A stretch of 47,950 bases of DNA from a virus: IMG/VR virus record IMGVR_UViG_3300005617_000161, positions 1-47,950 of that record; one strand, 5' to 3'. Below, piece by piece: positions 24,458-31,845 of the stretch. The position numbers were made by a program, and so were the translations under genes. Within the stretch, counting starts at the first letter, position 1, and each line of letters opens with the position of its first letter. The notes beneath the pieces were generated by a model that worked only from the letters and a program-made list of their open reading frames with translations, had not been told where the DNA came from and searched no databases.

Positions 24458-24583
24458 TGGGAATCTAATTTGTAATAAATTGCGATTCATCGTTACTTTC
24501 CTCCTTGCCAACAGGGTCTTTCGTACCGTTACCGTCATTCCCCATAAGTGCCATTACATCGGTGCAATCCGAGGAGTAGAACT
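24458..24583. other. AT-rich integrase leader, candidate attP region
   Basis: The stretch between the leftward promoter and the integrase start holds no gene. It is AT-rich to about 24500 (aatctaatttgtaataaatt) with short dyads, and it ends in the integrase ribosome site gaggag at 24571-24576. Its place beside the integrase makes it the best candidate for the attachment site, but no core sequence or tRNA fragment can be recognised. Confidence 0.3.
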
Positions 24584-25648
24584 GTGTCCACACAGCACAC
24601 ACTGAATCATTTCCGCTGTCCAGCGTGCGAGCTGCAAGCAGGGCCTTTCTCCATGCTCACGCCTGAAAGTGCATTTTCTGTTGCCGCGCAAATCTGGTTA
24701 GCCGATCACTCTCCGTATATCAAGCCGGGTACGCTGAGAGTCTATCGGCAGTACGCCAAGACGCTAACCCAGTTCCTAAATGACATTCCGCTCAGAGAGA
24801 TACACATCGGCAACGTCCGAGCTTATCAGCGCGAACGCTCGCAGAGAGCCTGCGCCCAGAGGATCAATGCCGAGGTGATTGCCGTTCTGGTGCCGGTGCT
24901 CAGGGAGGTCGGTTTGTGGCATCGCATCTCGGACGTTTACAGGCCCTTGCCTGTGCCGAAAAAGAAGGTTCGCCAGAACATGAGCGAGGAGGAAGAGAGG
25001 CGATTCTTAGCCGTCGCGCTCGATGCTGGACACCCAAAACGGCTCATGGCAGGTCACTGTTTAGTAATCATGGCGAATACCGGAATGGGCTTTGGAGAGC
25101 TCAGGCACCTGAGAAGGGAGGACGTTACTTTAGATGTAGAGAAGCCTTTCGTAACCGTCAACCCAGAGGGCGCCAAGAATGATTTCCGCGTCAGAACGAT
25201 TCCGCTGAACTGGATTGCGCTGCGATCGATGCGATGGCTCTTGCTCCGGTGGAAGAATCTGGGCGGCAAAGAGCCTACAGATTACCTATTGCCGCACCAC
25301 GGAACAAGAACAGAGCACGAGAAAGCCGACCCAAGCCATAGAACCAGCCAGGCAGACTTCAGCCGGCCAATCACAGGTATCTATAGAGCAGGCAATGAGA
25401 TCTTGCGCGAAGCTGGGCTAGAACACCTGAAGCTCTACGACATGCGCTCCCACTTCTGCACCAAGCTGCTCTCCGATCCGAACGTATCTGACCAGATGTT
25501 CAAAGAGCTCTTCGGCCATACTACGCAGGACATGCGCAACCGCTATTCAGCGCAGCGCATGGAGAAGAAGTCTGTAGCTGTTGAAAAGCTGGCGCTTGAT
25601 CCGGCTCCAACCCTTAAGTTGATTGCGTTTCCGGGCGGCAGAAAATAA
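24584..25648 (+). CDS. int: Tyrosine recombinase integrase
   Basis: 354 residues from GTG 24584, preferred over the upstream GTG (24548) because gaggag lies seven bases before it. N-terminal SAM-like DNA-binding region (YIKPGTLRVYRQYAKTL), then the catalytic domain: Arg174 in GELRHLR, a Lys near 198 (EGAKND), Arg288 in YDMRSHF, His312 in LFGHTT and the nucleophile Tyr321 in RNRYSAQ. The first box is Tyr-x-x-Arg rather than His-x-x-Arg, which is tolerated in the family. A CPAC pair lies near the N-terminus. It integrates and excises the prophage. Confidence 0.93.
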   Translation: MSTQHTLNHFRCPACELQAGPFSMLTPESAFSVAAQIWLADHSPYIKPGTLRVYRQYAKTLTQFLNDIPLREIHIGNVRAYQRERSQRACAQRINAEVIAVLVPVLREVGLWHRISDVYRPLPVPKKKVRQNMSEEEERRFLAVALDAGHPKRLMAGHCLVIMANTGMGFGELRHLRREDVTLDVEKPFVTVNPEGAKNDFRVRTIPLNWIALRSMRWLLLRWKNLGGKEPTDYLLPHHGTRTEHEKADPSHRTSQADFSRPITGIYRAGNEILREAGLEHLKLYDMRSHFCTKLLSDPNVSDQMFKELFGHTTQDMRNRYSAQRMEKKSVAVEKLALDPAPTLKLIAFPGGRK

Positions 25649-25662
25649 TTCTTCCAACCCTA

Positions 25663-25691
25663 TTGACATCGTTAACCGTCCGCGTTAATGT
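25663..25691 (+). promoter_or_regulatory. Promoter of the Cro-like gene with overlapping GTTAA operators
   Basis: TTGACA (25663-25668), 17 bases, TAATGT (25686-25691). The core is filled with GTTAA-type half-sites: GTTAAC, then GTTAAT and TTAAC, about 10-17 bases apart, probably operators. Initiation would fall about 3-5 bases before the ATG at 25702, so the message should be almost leaderless. Confidence 0.6.
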
Positions 25692-25701
25692 TTAACCCAC
25701 G

Positions 25702-25920
25702 ATGTCAAAACAGTTCACCCACGATCAAGTGTTGGCGGTTATCCGCAAGGAAGTAGACGGCAGTTCAATGACTGCAGTCGCTGCCCGGATCGGAGTCAGC
25801 ACGCCGTTTCTCAGCGACATCTTGGCTGGCAAGCGGCTTGTGAGCGAAACCGTTGCAAAAGCATTCGGATTCGAACGCGAAGTTACGACCACAATGGTTT
25901 TCCGTAAAAGAGCAGCGTAG
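25702..25920 (+). CDS. Cro-like helix-turn-helix regulator
   Basis: 72 residues. Helix-turn-helix near residues 22-45: SMTAVAARIGVSTPFLSDIL, with the usual Ala and Gly at the turn. The short, basic C-tail resembles small Cro or excisionase-type regulators. There is no ribosome site: the ATG follows the promoter -10 by 10 bases, so translation is probably leaderless. It lies directly behind the integrase and ahead of the early operon, so it is a likely switch protein. No larger CI-type repressor with a peptidase domain was found. Confidence 0.75.
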   Translation: MSKQFTHDQVLAVIRKEVDGSSMTAVAARIGVSTPFLSDILAGKRLVSETVAKAFGFEREVTTTMVFRKRAA

Positions 25921-25931
25921 CCAGTAACCAA

Positions 25932-25961
25932 AGGCGAGCGTACAAGTAACGTACCTCGCCT
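25932..25961 (+). terminator. Hairpin after the Cro-like gene, possible attenuator
   Basis: Stem aggcgag/ctcgcct plus an inner gtac/gtac with one bulged C, loop aagtaac, followed by gattt. It lies between the Cro-like gene and the long early operon. A weak terminator or antitermination site, comparable in position to lambda tR1, is possible. Confidence 0.45.
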
Positions 25962-25987
25962 GATTTCAGCCCAGAAAAGGAAAGCGT

Positions 25988-26323
25988 ATGAGCCTTACCA
26001 ATTCCTCCGCTATCCGCAGCGTCAGAGTGGATGGTACGCTGCCCCAAGCCGCAGACGGTGTGTCCTCCGTCACCCGACCCGAAACCATTCTGGAGATGGC
26101 AGATCGCATTTGTGACGCCATGTTTGGGCCGACATCCTATTCAGCCGTTACCAAACTGAACCGTGCTGCCGAGTATTGCAGCGACCAGTGCCTCATTGAA
26201 GCAACGAAGGACGGGGCTTACTGCGAAGGTTTCGCCAAAGCCTGTCTGCTGCTCTCTGACCTTGCCGATTCGATCGACGCATATCTGGTGGAGTCGTTTC
26301 TGGATAACGGCGGTGTGCAATGA
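25988..26323 (+). CDS. Early operon hypothetical protein
   Basis: 111 residues, ribosome site aaaaggaaagcgt. First gene of the early operon. C-terminal half is helical with several Cys (AEYCSDQCLIEAT, YCEGFAKACLLL). No family recognised. Coupled to the next gene by ATGA. Confidence 0.6.
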   Translation: MSLTNSSAIRSVRVDGTLPQAADGVSSVTRPETILEMADRICDAMFGPTSYSAVTKLNRAAEYCSDQCLIEATKDGAYCEGFAKACLLLSDLADSIDAYLVESFLDNGGVQ

Positions 26324-26454
26324 ACCCCTTCATGATGCCCCTCGAAGAGCGCAAGCGCAGAGAGTTTCATAGCTTCGCCAAGCTCTGCGTCTATGCCATC
26401 ACATTCGGCCTGTGCCTAGCAGCGTTTATCTATGCGACGAAGTGGGGGTTCTGA
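26320..26454 (+). CDS. Small single-span membrane protein
   Basis: 44 residues. Basic N-terminus (LEERKRREFHSFAKL) then one span (CVYAITFGLCLAAFIYAT). ATGA overlap upstream; the next ATG follows directly after its stop (TGATG). Small membrane proteins of this type are common in phage early operons; the role is not known. Confidence 0.6.
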   Translation: MNPFMMPLEERKRREFHSFAKLCVYAITFGLCLAAFIYATKWGF

Positions 26455-26747
26455 TGAGCAAGCATACGCCGGGACCGTGGACCATTGGCGGACCTAACAG
26501 AGTAGGGGAGGAAGCGCTCGGGATTATCGAAGGCAAGGACAAATATGTCGTCGCCGATGTTTGGGCGGATGTAGAAGAACTCGATGCCCGAGCCAACGCC
26601 AACCTCATCGCCGCTGCTCCTGAGATGTATGAGGCGCTGAAGAAATGCCAACTGCAACTTCTTCAGTCGGGCATAGATCACGAGTACGTTTCTGAGGCGC
26701 TAGGCGAGGCTCAAATCGCACTCGCCAAAGCGGAGGGACGCCAATGA
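26455..26747 (+). CDS. Conserved phage protein of the HTPGPW type
   Basis: 97 residues from ATG 26455, chosen because the protein then begins SKHTPGPWTI, the hallmark of a widespread phage family of unknown function. The middle matches the family pattern (ARANANLIAAAPEMYEALKK). The longer frame from 26412 overlaps the membrane gene and is not needed. Confidence 0.75.
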
Positions 26748-26920
26748 AGTGGACTCCCGCCCAAATCCAGACCATCAAGGACCGCAAGATTGCCTACCTC
26801 ATGCGCAAATATCTCGGCATAGAGAAGCAGTCAACCATAGAAGCCCGAGAGCGCTGGAGAGCAACGAATTCCAGCTGGGCAAGCACGCCGGAGCAGCCGA
26901 CGCCGGAGGAGTACCGATGA
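26744..26920 (+). CDS. Small basic hypothetical protein
   Basis: 58 residues, overlapping both neighbours by ATGA. Basic, helical (PAQIQTIKDRKIAYLMRKYL), with a Pro/Glu-rich tail. The overlaps and coding character make it credible, with no domain assigned. Confidence 0.55.
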   Translation: MKWTPAQIQTIKDRKIAYLMRKYLGIEKQSTIEARERWRATNSSWASTPEQPTPEEYR

Positions 26921-27348
26921 TCCTGAACTACACAACCAAGATTTCTGCTTCCCGCACCATTGCGGAGATTCAGCAGATCCTTGCCGCTAAAGGTGCGGGG
27001 CATGTCTCCGTGGATTACGAGGATTGCAAGGCTACAGCAGTTGTTTTCTCTGTGAGGGTTGGCCCGACGTTTGTCAACTATCGCTTGCCCTGCAATGTGG
27101 TTGGTGTGGCAAATGCGCTGAAGCGGGAACGGCCACACGCGTCCATCTGGCGAGATGTTGACCAGTGCGAACGGATCGCATGGCGAATTGTGAAGGATTG
27201 GGTTGAAGCGCAGATGGCCCTAGTTGAAGCGCAGCAGGCCGAGTTTGGCGAAGTGTTCCTGCCCTATGCAATCGACGTTAAAGGGCAGACGTTCTTTCAG
27301 AAATTCAAGGGCGATCAACTAGCCCTAACGGCAGGGGAGGCCGCATGA
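26917..27348 (+). CDS. Conserved phage recombination-module protein
   Basis: 143 residues from ATG 26917 (the longer frame begins in another gene). Features: TKISASRTIAEIQQILAAKG at the N-terminus and WRIVKDWVEAQMALVEA near the middle, then VFLPYAI. This pattern belongs to a common phage family found next to single-strand annealing genes. Function unknown; likely helps DNA recombination or replication. It is coupled to the ERF gene by ATGA. Confidence 0.65.
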   Translation: MILNYTTKISASRTIAEIQQILAAKGAGHVSVDYEDCKATAVVFSVRVGPTFVNYRLPCNVVGVANALKRERPHASIWRDVDQCERIAWRIVKDWVEAQMALVEAQQAEFGEVFLPYAIDVKGQTFFQKFKGDQLALTAGEAA

Positions 27349-29127: not shown

Positions 29128-29447
29128 AGCGCACCCCATTGCAGCGCAAGACATGGCTCAGAGCACGCCGCCCTACGCCAAGGACGCACAAGCTGGTGCC
29201 ACGGCTTACAGGCAAGGCTCTGGAGCAGCTACGCAATGACTGCTACTGGAGAGACGGTGGTATCTGCCAGGAGTGCGGAGTGAGGGTCAGCGATCTCTAT
29301 CCAGACTGGCATGGGCTGAAGTACCACATGGCTCATCGTCGCAACAAACGCAACCGCGGAGATTCGCTAGAGAACGTTCGGAGTTTATGCGGGGATTGTC
29401 ATCGTGCAGAGCACGGCAACCCGCTACCGAAAGGACTGAAGGGATGA
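29124..29447 (+). CDS. HNH endonuclease-like protein
   Basis: 107 residues from ATG 29124. N-terminus KRTPLQRKTWLRARRP is typical of a phage HNH family. Zinc pair CQECG, then HMAHRRNKRNRGDS (HNH core) and NVRSLCGDCHRAEH. The usual histidine and second Cys pair are present. Function could be resolution or nicking; coupled to the methyltransferase downstream. Confidence 0.8.
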   Translation: MKRTPLQRKTWLRARRPTPRTHKLVPRLTGKALEQLRNDCYWRDGGICQECGVRVSDLYPDWHGLKYHMAHRRNKRNRGDSLENVRSLCGDCHRAEHGNPLPKGLKG

Positions 29448-30085
29448 GTCCTTACTACGAGCATGCCGGGATCACGATCTACCACGGCGACTGCCGAGAG
29501 GTACTGCACGGCCTTGATTATGATGTGCTGCACTCAGACCCGCCCTACGGGATCAATCACCCGACAGACTATGCCAAGCGCGGCAGGTCAAAGCTGGCTC
29601 CATGTAGCGACTTTATCCCTGTTTTTGCCGATGATTCACCGTTCGATCCCGCGTTCTTGCTTGACTCTCGGCAGTGCATCCTTTGGGGCGCAAATCACTA
29701 TGCGAACAAGCTGCCTGCAACCAGCGGTTGGCTCGTATGGGATAAGGAAAGGCCGGAAGACCTAGACCAAGCAACGTGTGAGCTGGCATGGACGAACTGC
29801 ATTAAGGGCGTGCGCAGATTTCGCCATCTTTGGCACGGCATGATGAGGGCCAGCGAGAACGAACCGCTGCAACATCCGACACAGAAGCCAGTGGCTCTAG
29901 CGCAATGGGCGCTCTCGCTCCGATGGGTGATTGATGGGACCGTCTGTGATCCGTATATGGGCTCAGGAACAACGCTAGTCGCTGCGAAGAATCTAGGGCG
30001 CAAAGCCATCGGCATTGAGATCGAAGAGAAGTATTGCGAGATTGCCGCAAAGAGATTGAGTCAAGAAGTATTCCAGTTTCAGTAA
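29444..30085 (+). CDS. DNA methyltransferase (beta-type amino-MTase)
   Basis: 213 residues from ATG 29444. Catalytic motif IV DPPYGI near residue 32 precedes the AdoMet-binding DPYMGSGTTLVAAK near 170, the order of beta-class N6-adenine/N4-cytosine enzymes; HPTQKPVALAQW lies between. It probably methylates phage DNA against host restriction or regulates packaging. Only a short target-recognition region is seen. Confidence 0.88.
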   Translation: MSPYYEHAGITIYHGDCREVLHGLDYDVLHSDPPYGINHPTDYAKRGRSKLAPCSDFIPVFADDSPFDPAFLLDSRQCILWGANHYANKLPATSGWLVWDKERPEDLDQATCELAWTNCIKGVRRFRHLWHGMMRASENEPLQHPTQKPVALAQWALSLRWVIDGTVCDPYMGSGTTLVAAKNLGRKAIGIEIEEKYCEIAAKRLSQEVFQFQ

Positions 30086-30118: not shown

Positions 30119-30877
30119 GTGGGACGCATAAGAACGATCAAACCAGAGTTTCCGCAGTCAGAATCAATCGGCAAGTTGTCGAGAGAAGCGCGTCTCTTAT
30201 TCATCCAGTTGTGGACCGCCGCTGACGACGAGGGGAGGCTTCGCGGGGCCTCGCGAATGCTCGCGAGTACTCTCTACCCTTACGACGAAGATGCTCCGCA
30301 GTTAATTGAGGGCTGGTTACTCGAACTAGAGACCAATGAACACATCCGGCGCTATGTGATCGCAGCCAATACTTACATCGAGATCATTAACTTCAGTACT
30401 CACCAAAAGATAGACCATCCCAGCAAATCAAGATTGCCAGCTTTCGCGAAGCCTCGCGAATCCTCGCGCCGGAAGGTATCTAGGACCAAGGATCAGGACC
30501 TAGGAAAGGGATCAATTGCGCGGAGCGTTCCGCCAGAAGAACTGGCGGGAACACTTCCGCTGGTAGATGGTTCTGATTTTCAGATTTCCAAAGAGCAAGT
30601 CAAAACCTGGACCGATGCGTACCCGGGCGTGGAAGTGAAAACGAGTTTAAAGCAGGCTAAAGCGTGGCTGGAGGCGAACCCGACGCGAAAGAAAACGCGA
30701 AAGGGGATCATGCGATTCACGGTTGCATGGCTAGACAGGGCACAGAACTCAGGAGGGGCGAATGGACGACAAGATCAAAAACGCATTGAAGGCAATGTTG
30801 GCGCTCAGGGCAGCGAAGATGGACCCGACCTCTATGCGGCTTTATACGGCCCGGTTGAGCAAGGAAAACTCAACTGA
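30119..30877 (+). CDS. Replication initiator-like protein with embedded origin repeats
   Basis: 252 residues, GTG start with ribosome site ggggagcaa. N-terminus RIRTIKPEFPQSESIGKLS and ARLLFIQLWTAADDEGRL are typical of phage replication-organiser proteins with a winged-helix N-domain; FSTHQKIDHPSKS follows. The C-terminal part has WLEANP and RFTVAWLDRAQ, also seen in this family. The gene carries two iteron triplets (30241-30265, 30444-30468), so the origin probably lies inside it, as in lambda O. No helicase gene was found, so host DnaB loading is likely. Confidence 0.8.
   Translation: MGRIRTIKPEFPQSESIGKLSREARLLFIQLWTAADDEGRLRGASRMLASTLYPYDEDAPQLIEGWLLELETNEHIRRYVIAANTYIEIINFSTHQKIDHPSKSRLPAFAKPRESSRRKVSRTKDQDLGKGSIARSVPPEELAGTLPLVDGSDFQISKEQVKTWTDAYPGVEVKTSLKQAKAWLEANPTRKKTRKGIMRFTVAWLDRAQNSGGANGRQDQKRIEGNVGAQGSEDGPDLYAALYGPVEQGKLN
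30241..30265. repeat. First iteron triplet (TCGCG x3, 10-bp phase)
   Basis: TCGCG begins at 30241, 30251 and 30261, exactly one helical turn apart. The three copies fall in all three reading frames, so the pattern is not caused by repeated residues. Confidence 0.65.
30444..30468. repeat. Second iteron triplet (TCGCG x3, 10-bp phase)
   Basis: TCGCG begins at 30444, 30454 and 30464, again 10 bp apart and in all three frames. The middle copies of both clusters share gcctcgcgaat. A 13-bp-spaced AGGACC pair follows at 30482-30500. Confidence 0.65.
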
Positions 30878-31277
30878 CGTGGTTGCTGTTTTGCAGAAGC
30901 TTGCGGAGATGCCGAGAGCTGAGTTTGAAACTGCAGTACCGGACATTGCCACAATCACGGCCATGATTCGCGCCGAGGAGATAGCTCGGAAGAACCGATC
31001 GACAGCGCAAAAGTCGCAACGGCTAGTCCGCTATGTCTGCCCAAGTTGCGGTGCTACCCGCTGCGCTTTCCCCGGCATCACTGAGGATTTGTTTCGCAAG
31101 TGCTATCGCGTCGTGGGCTTCGATGAGCGCGGCGCCAAGCTGGAATGCGGCTATGAGCTCACAGTGATCTTCGATGAGAACCAGGAGCCAGATGGTGAGC
31201 GCGTGTATTACAAGGCCCCTGCTTTTGTGGAGAAGGCGCTAAAGGAAACGCCCAGAGTACTTCCGGAGGTTCTGTGA
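30762..31277 (+). CDS. Early protein with C-terminal zinc-ribbon-like part
   Basis: 171 residues, ATG 30762 with a strong ribosome site (ggaggggcga). It overlaps the initiator-like gene by 116 bases in another frame. The N-terminus (NALKAMLALRAAKMDP ... RLYTARLSKE ... VVAVLQKLAEMP) resembles small helicase-loader or loader-inhibitor folds, a weak match. The C-terminal half has CPSCG and later C (KLECGYE), a zinc site. Position behind the initiator supports a replication role. Confidence 0.6.
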   Translation: MDDKIKNALKAMLALRAAKMDPTSMRLYTARLSKENSTDVVAVLQKLAEMPRAEFETAVPDIATITAMIRAEEIARKNRSTAQKSQRLVRYVCPSCGATRCAFPGITEDLFRKCYRVVGFDERGAKLECGYELTVIFDENQEPDGERVYYKAPAFVEKALKETPRVLPEVL

Positions 31278-31450
31278 CCGACTTCTACGAACTCAAGCGC
31301 CACGAGCGCAAGGGCTGGAACCACGGGTTAATCGCAGCCTGTGTGTTCACCCTGATGGTCTGGGCAGGAGTGATCTTGCTGGCGATAAATGCAATTCAGT
31401 GGTGGCAGGCGATCGTGGAGTTCTTGGAGAAGGTGGGGCTGGGGGGATGA
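31274..31450 (+). CDS. Small membrane protein
   Basis: 58 residues, GTG start overlapping the stop upstream (GTGA). Basic N-terminus (YELKRHERKGWNHG) and one span (LIAACVFTLMVWAGVILLAI), then a short tail. Ends in ATGA coupling with the methyltransferase gene. Confidence 0.6.
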   Translation: MTDFYELKRHERKGWNHGLIAACVFTLMVWAGVILLAINAIQWWQAIVEFLEKVGLGG

Positions 31451-31845
31451 ATCGAGTTCACTTCAGTGCGGCATCGGATCGTTGGGCCACACCTCGGGAT
31501 ACCTATGAGGCGCTGGACAGGGAATTCCGATTCGACTTCGACCCATGTCCGCTAGATGGGGAGCAGGATGGAACAGCCTCGCTCTTCGTCGCATGGCAGG
31601 GTAAGCGCGTGTTCTGTAACCCGCCCTATGGTCCAGACCTGCGCAAGTTCCTTGAACGTGCTCACGAGGCGGATTTGGCGGTTTTCCTGATTCCTGCCCG
31701 AACAGACACGCGCTGGTTCCATGAAATCGTGCTGCCTCACGCCAAAGAGATCCGCTTTCTCAAAGGACGACTCAAGTTCGGAGATTCGGTTAACTCCGCG
31801 CCATTTCCAAGCATGGTTGTGATTTTCGAGAGGGCCACAGCATGA
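31447..31845 (+). CDS. Phage Dam-type adenine methyltransferase
   Basis: 132 residues. Motifs of the phage Dam (PF05869-type) family: FDFDPCPLDGEQDG, then FCNPPYGPDLRKFL (catalytic NPPY), FLIPARTDTRWFHE and FLKGRLKF. It is somewhat shorter than usual but the order is intact. It methylates adenine in DNA; a cognate nuclease was not seen. Second methyltransferase of the genome. Confidence 0.88.
   Translation: MNRVHFSAASDRWATPRDTYEALDREFRFDFDPCPLDGEQDGTASLFVAWQGKRVFCNPPYGPDLRKFLERAHEADLAVFLIPARTDTRWFHEIVLPHAKEIRFLKGRLKFGDSVNSAPFPSMVVIFERATA

Follow-up and report, generated by a model that had tools for sequence, protein, structure and literature searches.

A probable lambda O-like replication origin of phased TCGCGA-type repeats embedded in a phage initiator gene

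In lambda and the Stx phages, the replication origin lies in the middle of the O gene and comprises 19-bp imperfect inverted repeats (four in lambda, six in Stx phages) together with an AT-rich tract (PMC7466680). For the Mycobacterium cluster A phages that carry RepA, Wetzel et al. placed the origin probably in or next to repA, and no repeats were found (PMC7157519). In Francisella phage KIRK, an origin has been predicted from putative iterons within a replication gene (PMC7924643). The iteron plasmids (P1 RepA, R6K and RK2) combine direct repeats at helical-turn multiples with a winged-helix initiator (reviewed in PMC4980987). No description of the repeats reported below was found in the open-licence literature.

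The window, i.e. the whole stretch of 47,950 nucleotides that was analysed, carries on its plus strand a gene with a GTG start (P0001, 30119..30877) for a 252-residue protein. This protein matched the profiles PHROG 16167 (E 3e-27), 2149 (E 2e-25) and 1408 (E 2e-23), all of which are named replication initiation protein. A word search on the same strand placed the pentamer TCGCG exactly where the first-pass annotation had reported it, at 30241, 30251 and 30261 (cluster I, 30241..30266) and again at 30444, 30454 and 30464 (cluster II, 30444..30468), with a spacing of 10 bp within each triplet and 203 bp between the two. The palindrome TCGCGA is complete in four of the six copies. Cluster II is followed by a purine-rich, degenerate 7-bp tandem array with the unit CTAGGAC (30480..30511, plus strand; the array evidence covers 30480–30505). 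The two AGGACC copies that had been noted behind cluster II, at 30482 and 30495, are correctly positioned and turned out to be members of this array, which in the window is not significant by itself and is clear and strong in relatives; these copies are a weak, decayed form of the relatives' array. Single-strand folding of the window array was unremarkable (z −0.9).

The analogy to the lambda origin in gene O, drawn in the first-pass annotation, holds for the layout and fails in the detail. As in lambda, the initiator has an N-terminal DNA-binding domain and a linker, the putative binding sites lie well within its own gene, and the linker codons hold repeats (here cluster II and the array); a helicase loader gene follows in lambda, and a P-like loader or DnaB follows in several relatives of the window gene. 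In contrast to the single cluster of lambda and the Stx phages, two clusters about 200 bp apart are present here; the 19-bp inverted repeats are replaced by 6-bp palindromic cores 10–11 bp apart, and the AT-rich tract by GC-rich surroundings and a purine-rich 7/8-bp tandem array. The window protein is not a member of the lambda O family by Pfam. Iteron plasmids share the direct repeats at helical-turn multiples and the winged-helix initiator, but their repeats, about 17–22 bp each, lie outside the rep gene rather than inside coding sequence with a period of 10–11 bp. The initiators of the cluster A phages are likewise phage initiators, of RepA type, but are 320–350 residues long, with a helix-turn-helix at about residues 95–132 and no repeated motif (PMC7157519). 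The KIRK origin, likewise inside a replication gene, is AT-rich, has four sites and belongs to another protein family (Phg_2220_C; PMC7924643).

Neither Pfam nor NCBIfam returned a match for the window initiator, the Pfam model of phage O protein matched neither it nor any of 64 relatives, and a sequence search of solved structures found no relative; the family has no Pfam or NCBIfam model, and PHROGs names it replication initiation protein. An AlphaFold2 model built from a 64-sequence alignment (mean pLDDT 83) comprised a winged-helix DNA-binding domain (residues 1–109, 30119..30445 on the plus strand; pLDDT mostly 93–98), a disordered linker (residues 110–140, 30446..30538, plus strand; pLDDT 47–63 for residues 111–140) and a C-terminal domain (residues 141–218, 30539..30772, plus strand; pLDDT 92–97 for residues 141–210), which is supposed to contact a loader or to bind single strands. 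The top Foldseek matches of the N-terminal domain were the winged-helix regulators CodY, BlaI and MecI, all weak (E 0.02–0.2). Cluster I encodes part of helix 2 of the winged helix. Cluster II encodes the start of the linker, and cluster II and the array together encode residues 109–131, which are disordered in the model.

The pattern TCGCG-N5-TCGCG-N5-TCGCG has two sites in the window, both in the initiator gene, and none in 100 dinucleotide shuffles; single TCGCG words are below expectation (111 observed versus 171 expected). Permutation of synonymous codons over the gene's first 480 bp produced a triplet in 57 of 20,000 trials and both clusters in 0 of 20,000. It had also been argued that the copies fall in all three reading frames. 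This argument is weaker than it looks because a 10-bp period visits every frame automatically, although the conclusion that protein repeats do not explain the copies still stands.

We scanned 2.9 million viral contigs for the double TCGCG triplet by its DNA pattern only. This returned 69 stretches, and all 69 lay inside genes of this initiator family: 67 with a full gene start that the initiator-family seed recognised, and two (L061 and L064) with the start missing that nevertheless read as the same initiator protein. Relatives were also selected by protein, using conserved bait peptides, one of which overlaps cluster I; exact triplets were present in 58/77, 24/72 and 32/78 of these genes, where synonymous permutation expects 0.2–0.5. 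Cluster I occupied the same place in four of the first five relatives, as it does in most close relatives. The loss of phased repeats from relatives that retain the protein, which had been anticipated as evidence against an origin, was not the prevailing pattern. With identity measured over the DNA-binding domain, 74 of the 82 protein-selected genes at ≥60% identity have cluster I, 66 have cluster II and 60 have both; at 50–60% identity (n = 29) the numbers are 20, 19 and 14, about a third lacking one cluster. Below 50% identity TCGCGA is rare, and distant relatives are often without recognizable repeats. Considerably more than a hundred related genes of phages and prophages share the hidden double-repeat layout. 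A gene from a Planctomycetota MAG (L281) has, at its nucleotides 345–400, five cores of TCGCGA type with 11-bp spacing and GGGAACA arrays behind them; either the bin is mixed or the scheme is not confined to Proteobacteria and Actinobacteria.

Neighbouring cores in the relatives are spaced by one or two whole helical turns: 10 bp occurred 456 times, 11 bp 158 times, 21 bp 73 times and 20 bp 13 times, with very few spacings of 13–19 bp. The direct repeats at helical-turn multiples that characterize iteron origins are present, with 10, 11 and 21 bp dominating. In the proteobacterial family, cluster I encodes SRMLAS (alignment columns 45–50, codons ~41–50); in the actinobacterial family it encodes REPSRT and the following residues (columns 59–64), about 15 codons further on. 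Cluster II always falls in the variable linker of the relatives, and all three reading frames are used.

In divergent branches of the family the repeat sequence differs, but it changes jointly in the two clusters, and several relatives without TCGCGA have another repeat in both. A shared hexamer occurs at least twice in both clusters of 110 of 153 representatives, where about 11 are expected. TCCCGGA is found in both clusters of L202 and L159, TCGACGA in both of L153 and L155, and TCAGTGA/TCACTGA in both of L296, L304, L305, L307 and Streptomyces phage Austintatious (L317). Such joint change would be expected of clusters that are recognized by one and the same protein. How many genuine repeat switches there are is uncertain, since automatic detection did not score TCAGTGA as significant in L317 and L296, where it was read by eye. 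When used as scan patterns, TCAGTGA gave three matches, all in the initiator family and all close relatives, and TCCCGGA gave one of five in the family, so this short pattern is not specific. Paired TCCCGGA sites with 11-bp spacing and ~200 bp apart were seen outside the initiator family at L323:7209-7426, L325:1790-2017, L326:12436-12673 and L327:11047-11285, where further repeat-type origins, or else control sites, may lie.

In most relatives, cluster II is followed by a tandem array with a mean purine content of 0.75 on the coding strand, built from 7-bp units (GGATCAA, CCTAGGA, GGGAACA) or from the 8-bp unit GGGGAACA. The order of the array is also set at the DNA level, because neither 7 nor 8 is divisible by three. 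A G-quadruplex was rejected as an explanation of the array, as the G-tracts fit the 8-bp GGGGAACA type and not CCTAGGA. GATC, a possible methylation target for a Dam-type enzyme, is present in many of the family A arrays (GGATCAA), and a Dam-like methyltransferase gene lies downstream of the window initiator at 31399–31845.

The concern that similar phased triplets might be frequent elsewhere in the genome was not realized. In both the window and Gordonia phage Lucky10, runs of at least three cores were confined to the initiator gene, and in seven further virus records the triplet occurred only as two nearby groups fitting the gene layout, with no occurrence of the reversed control pattern. 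The capsid protease gene of Mycobacterium phage Fishburne contains a single stray run of three TCGCG cores, spaced by 10–11 bp (L322:4708-4733). The GC-skew check suggested in the first-pass annotation neither supports nor excludes an origin at the repeats, as the cumulative minimum lies at ~25–27 kb and not at 30.2 kb; this minimum (25000–27000) is near an integrase gene (24548–25648), 3–5 kb from the repeats. An AT-rich tract adjoining the repeats was sought and no peak was found, the AT fraction after cluster II being 0.38–0.45 in family A and 0.31–0.41 in family B.

The gene that overlaps the end of the initiator gene (30762..31277, plus strand) encodes 171 residues with a CxxC zinc-finger-like motif and gave no match to PHROG, Pfam, NCBIfam or phage records, nor to any known loader; from its position only, it is supposed to be a helicase loader. 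Directly downstream of the initiator in some relatives lie a P-like helicase loader (L236) or a DnaB helicase (L250 and L024), and a helicase loader is annotated in Lucky10 and a DnaC-like gene in Mx8.

Binding of iterons by plasmid initiators serves copy control, and the repeats could be a control site, at which the initiator or a repressor regulates its own transcription or ties origins together while replication starts elsewhere. The position of cluster I only about 120 bp into the gene and the GC-skew minimum 3–5 kb upstream would suit such a site. Against it, a scan of 29.9–30.9 kb gave no promoter better than chance, both clusters lie deep within the coding region, the tandem array is always placed behind cluster II, and lambda and the Stx phages have their origin in this very place (PMC7466680). 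We regard a control site as improbable. Another protein might instead bind the repeats, for example the N6/N4 DNA methyltransferase encoded directly upstream of the initiator (29444–30085, identified by profile matches), whose target would perhaps be TCGCGA. A methyltransferase gene is also near the initiator gene in Lucky10 and Fishburne, but as read from the starts of the upstream proteins it lies directly upstream in only one other of ~27 relatives; a methyltransferase requires no helical phasing, and the repeat changes jointly in both clusters within the initiator family. This reading is given a very low probability, about half that of a control site.

That conserved residues together with codon bias gave rise to the repeats is the least credible of the alternatives, with next to no probability left to it, even though cluster I overlaps the conserved SRMLAS motif and the genomes are fairly GC-rich. 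The synonymous-permutation nulls, the differing frames of cluster II, the placement of cluster I at non-homologous protein positions in the two families (columns 45–50 versus 59–64) and the use of other codons for the same residues in some relatives (e.g. L113) all argue against it; protein repeats and codon bias were rejected on the permutations and on the shifted positions and frames.

The repeats, their conservation at the DNA level, their helical phasing, the joint change of the clusters, the domain layout and the replication-gene neighbourhood of the relatives were all computed here. Read together, the sequences suggest that the repeats are very probably the docking site where the initiator starts copying its own genome. 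That they form a lambda O-like phage replication origin, situated within the very gene that encodes its initiator and working by the full mechanism proposed below, is held with high confidence. For binding by the initiator, origin function, the melting site and the role of the next gene, we infer the following course. The winged-helix domain (residues 1–109) would bind the TCGCGA-type repeats. With a whole number of helical turns from copy to copy, initiator molecules would align along the same face of the DNA and form two groups separated by about 20 turns. The two groups would probably be bridged or wrapped into one complex, which would most likely open the duplex at or next to the purine-rich array behind cluster II, whereupon the C-terminal domain and the product of the next gene would bring in a DnaB-type helicase.

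A broader proposal, which we advance tentatively and judge as a whole somewhat less probable than an even chance, is that the locus represents an undescribed and widespread class of phage origins, bipartite, GC-rich and contained wholly in initiator coding sequence, in which clusters ~20 turns apart are bridged and melting via a purine-rich 7/8-bp array replaces the AT-rich tract; in the same joint proposal, cluster I of the actinobacterial family would encode the probable recognition helix, such that a change of the repeat alters the helix that reads it.

The origins of these temperate phages appear to be unmapped, and the family includes isolates with laboratory hosts, namely Gordonia phage Lucky10, Mycobacterium phages Fishburne and Bernal13, and Streptomyces phage Austintatious. 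The finding would also pose the problem of how duplex opening proceeds at a GC-rich origin that lacks an AT-rich tract. If the reading is true, sequence alone would locate the origin in many temperate phages, a large family with hosts among the Proteobacteria and Actinobacteria, and the locus would cleanly exemplify DNA that carries two codes at once, together with natural variants in which the binding site has changed.
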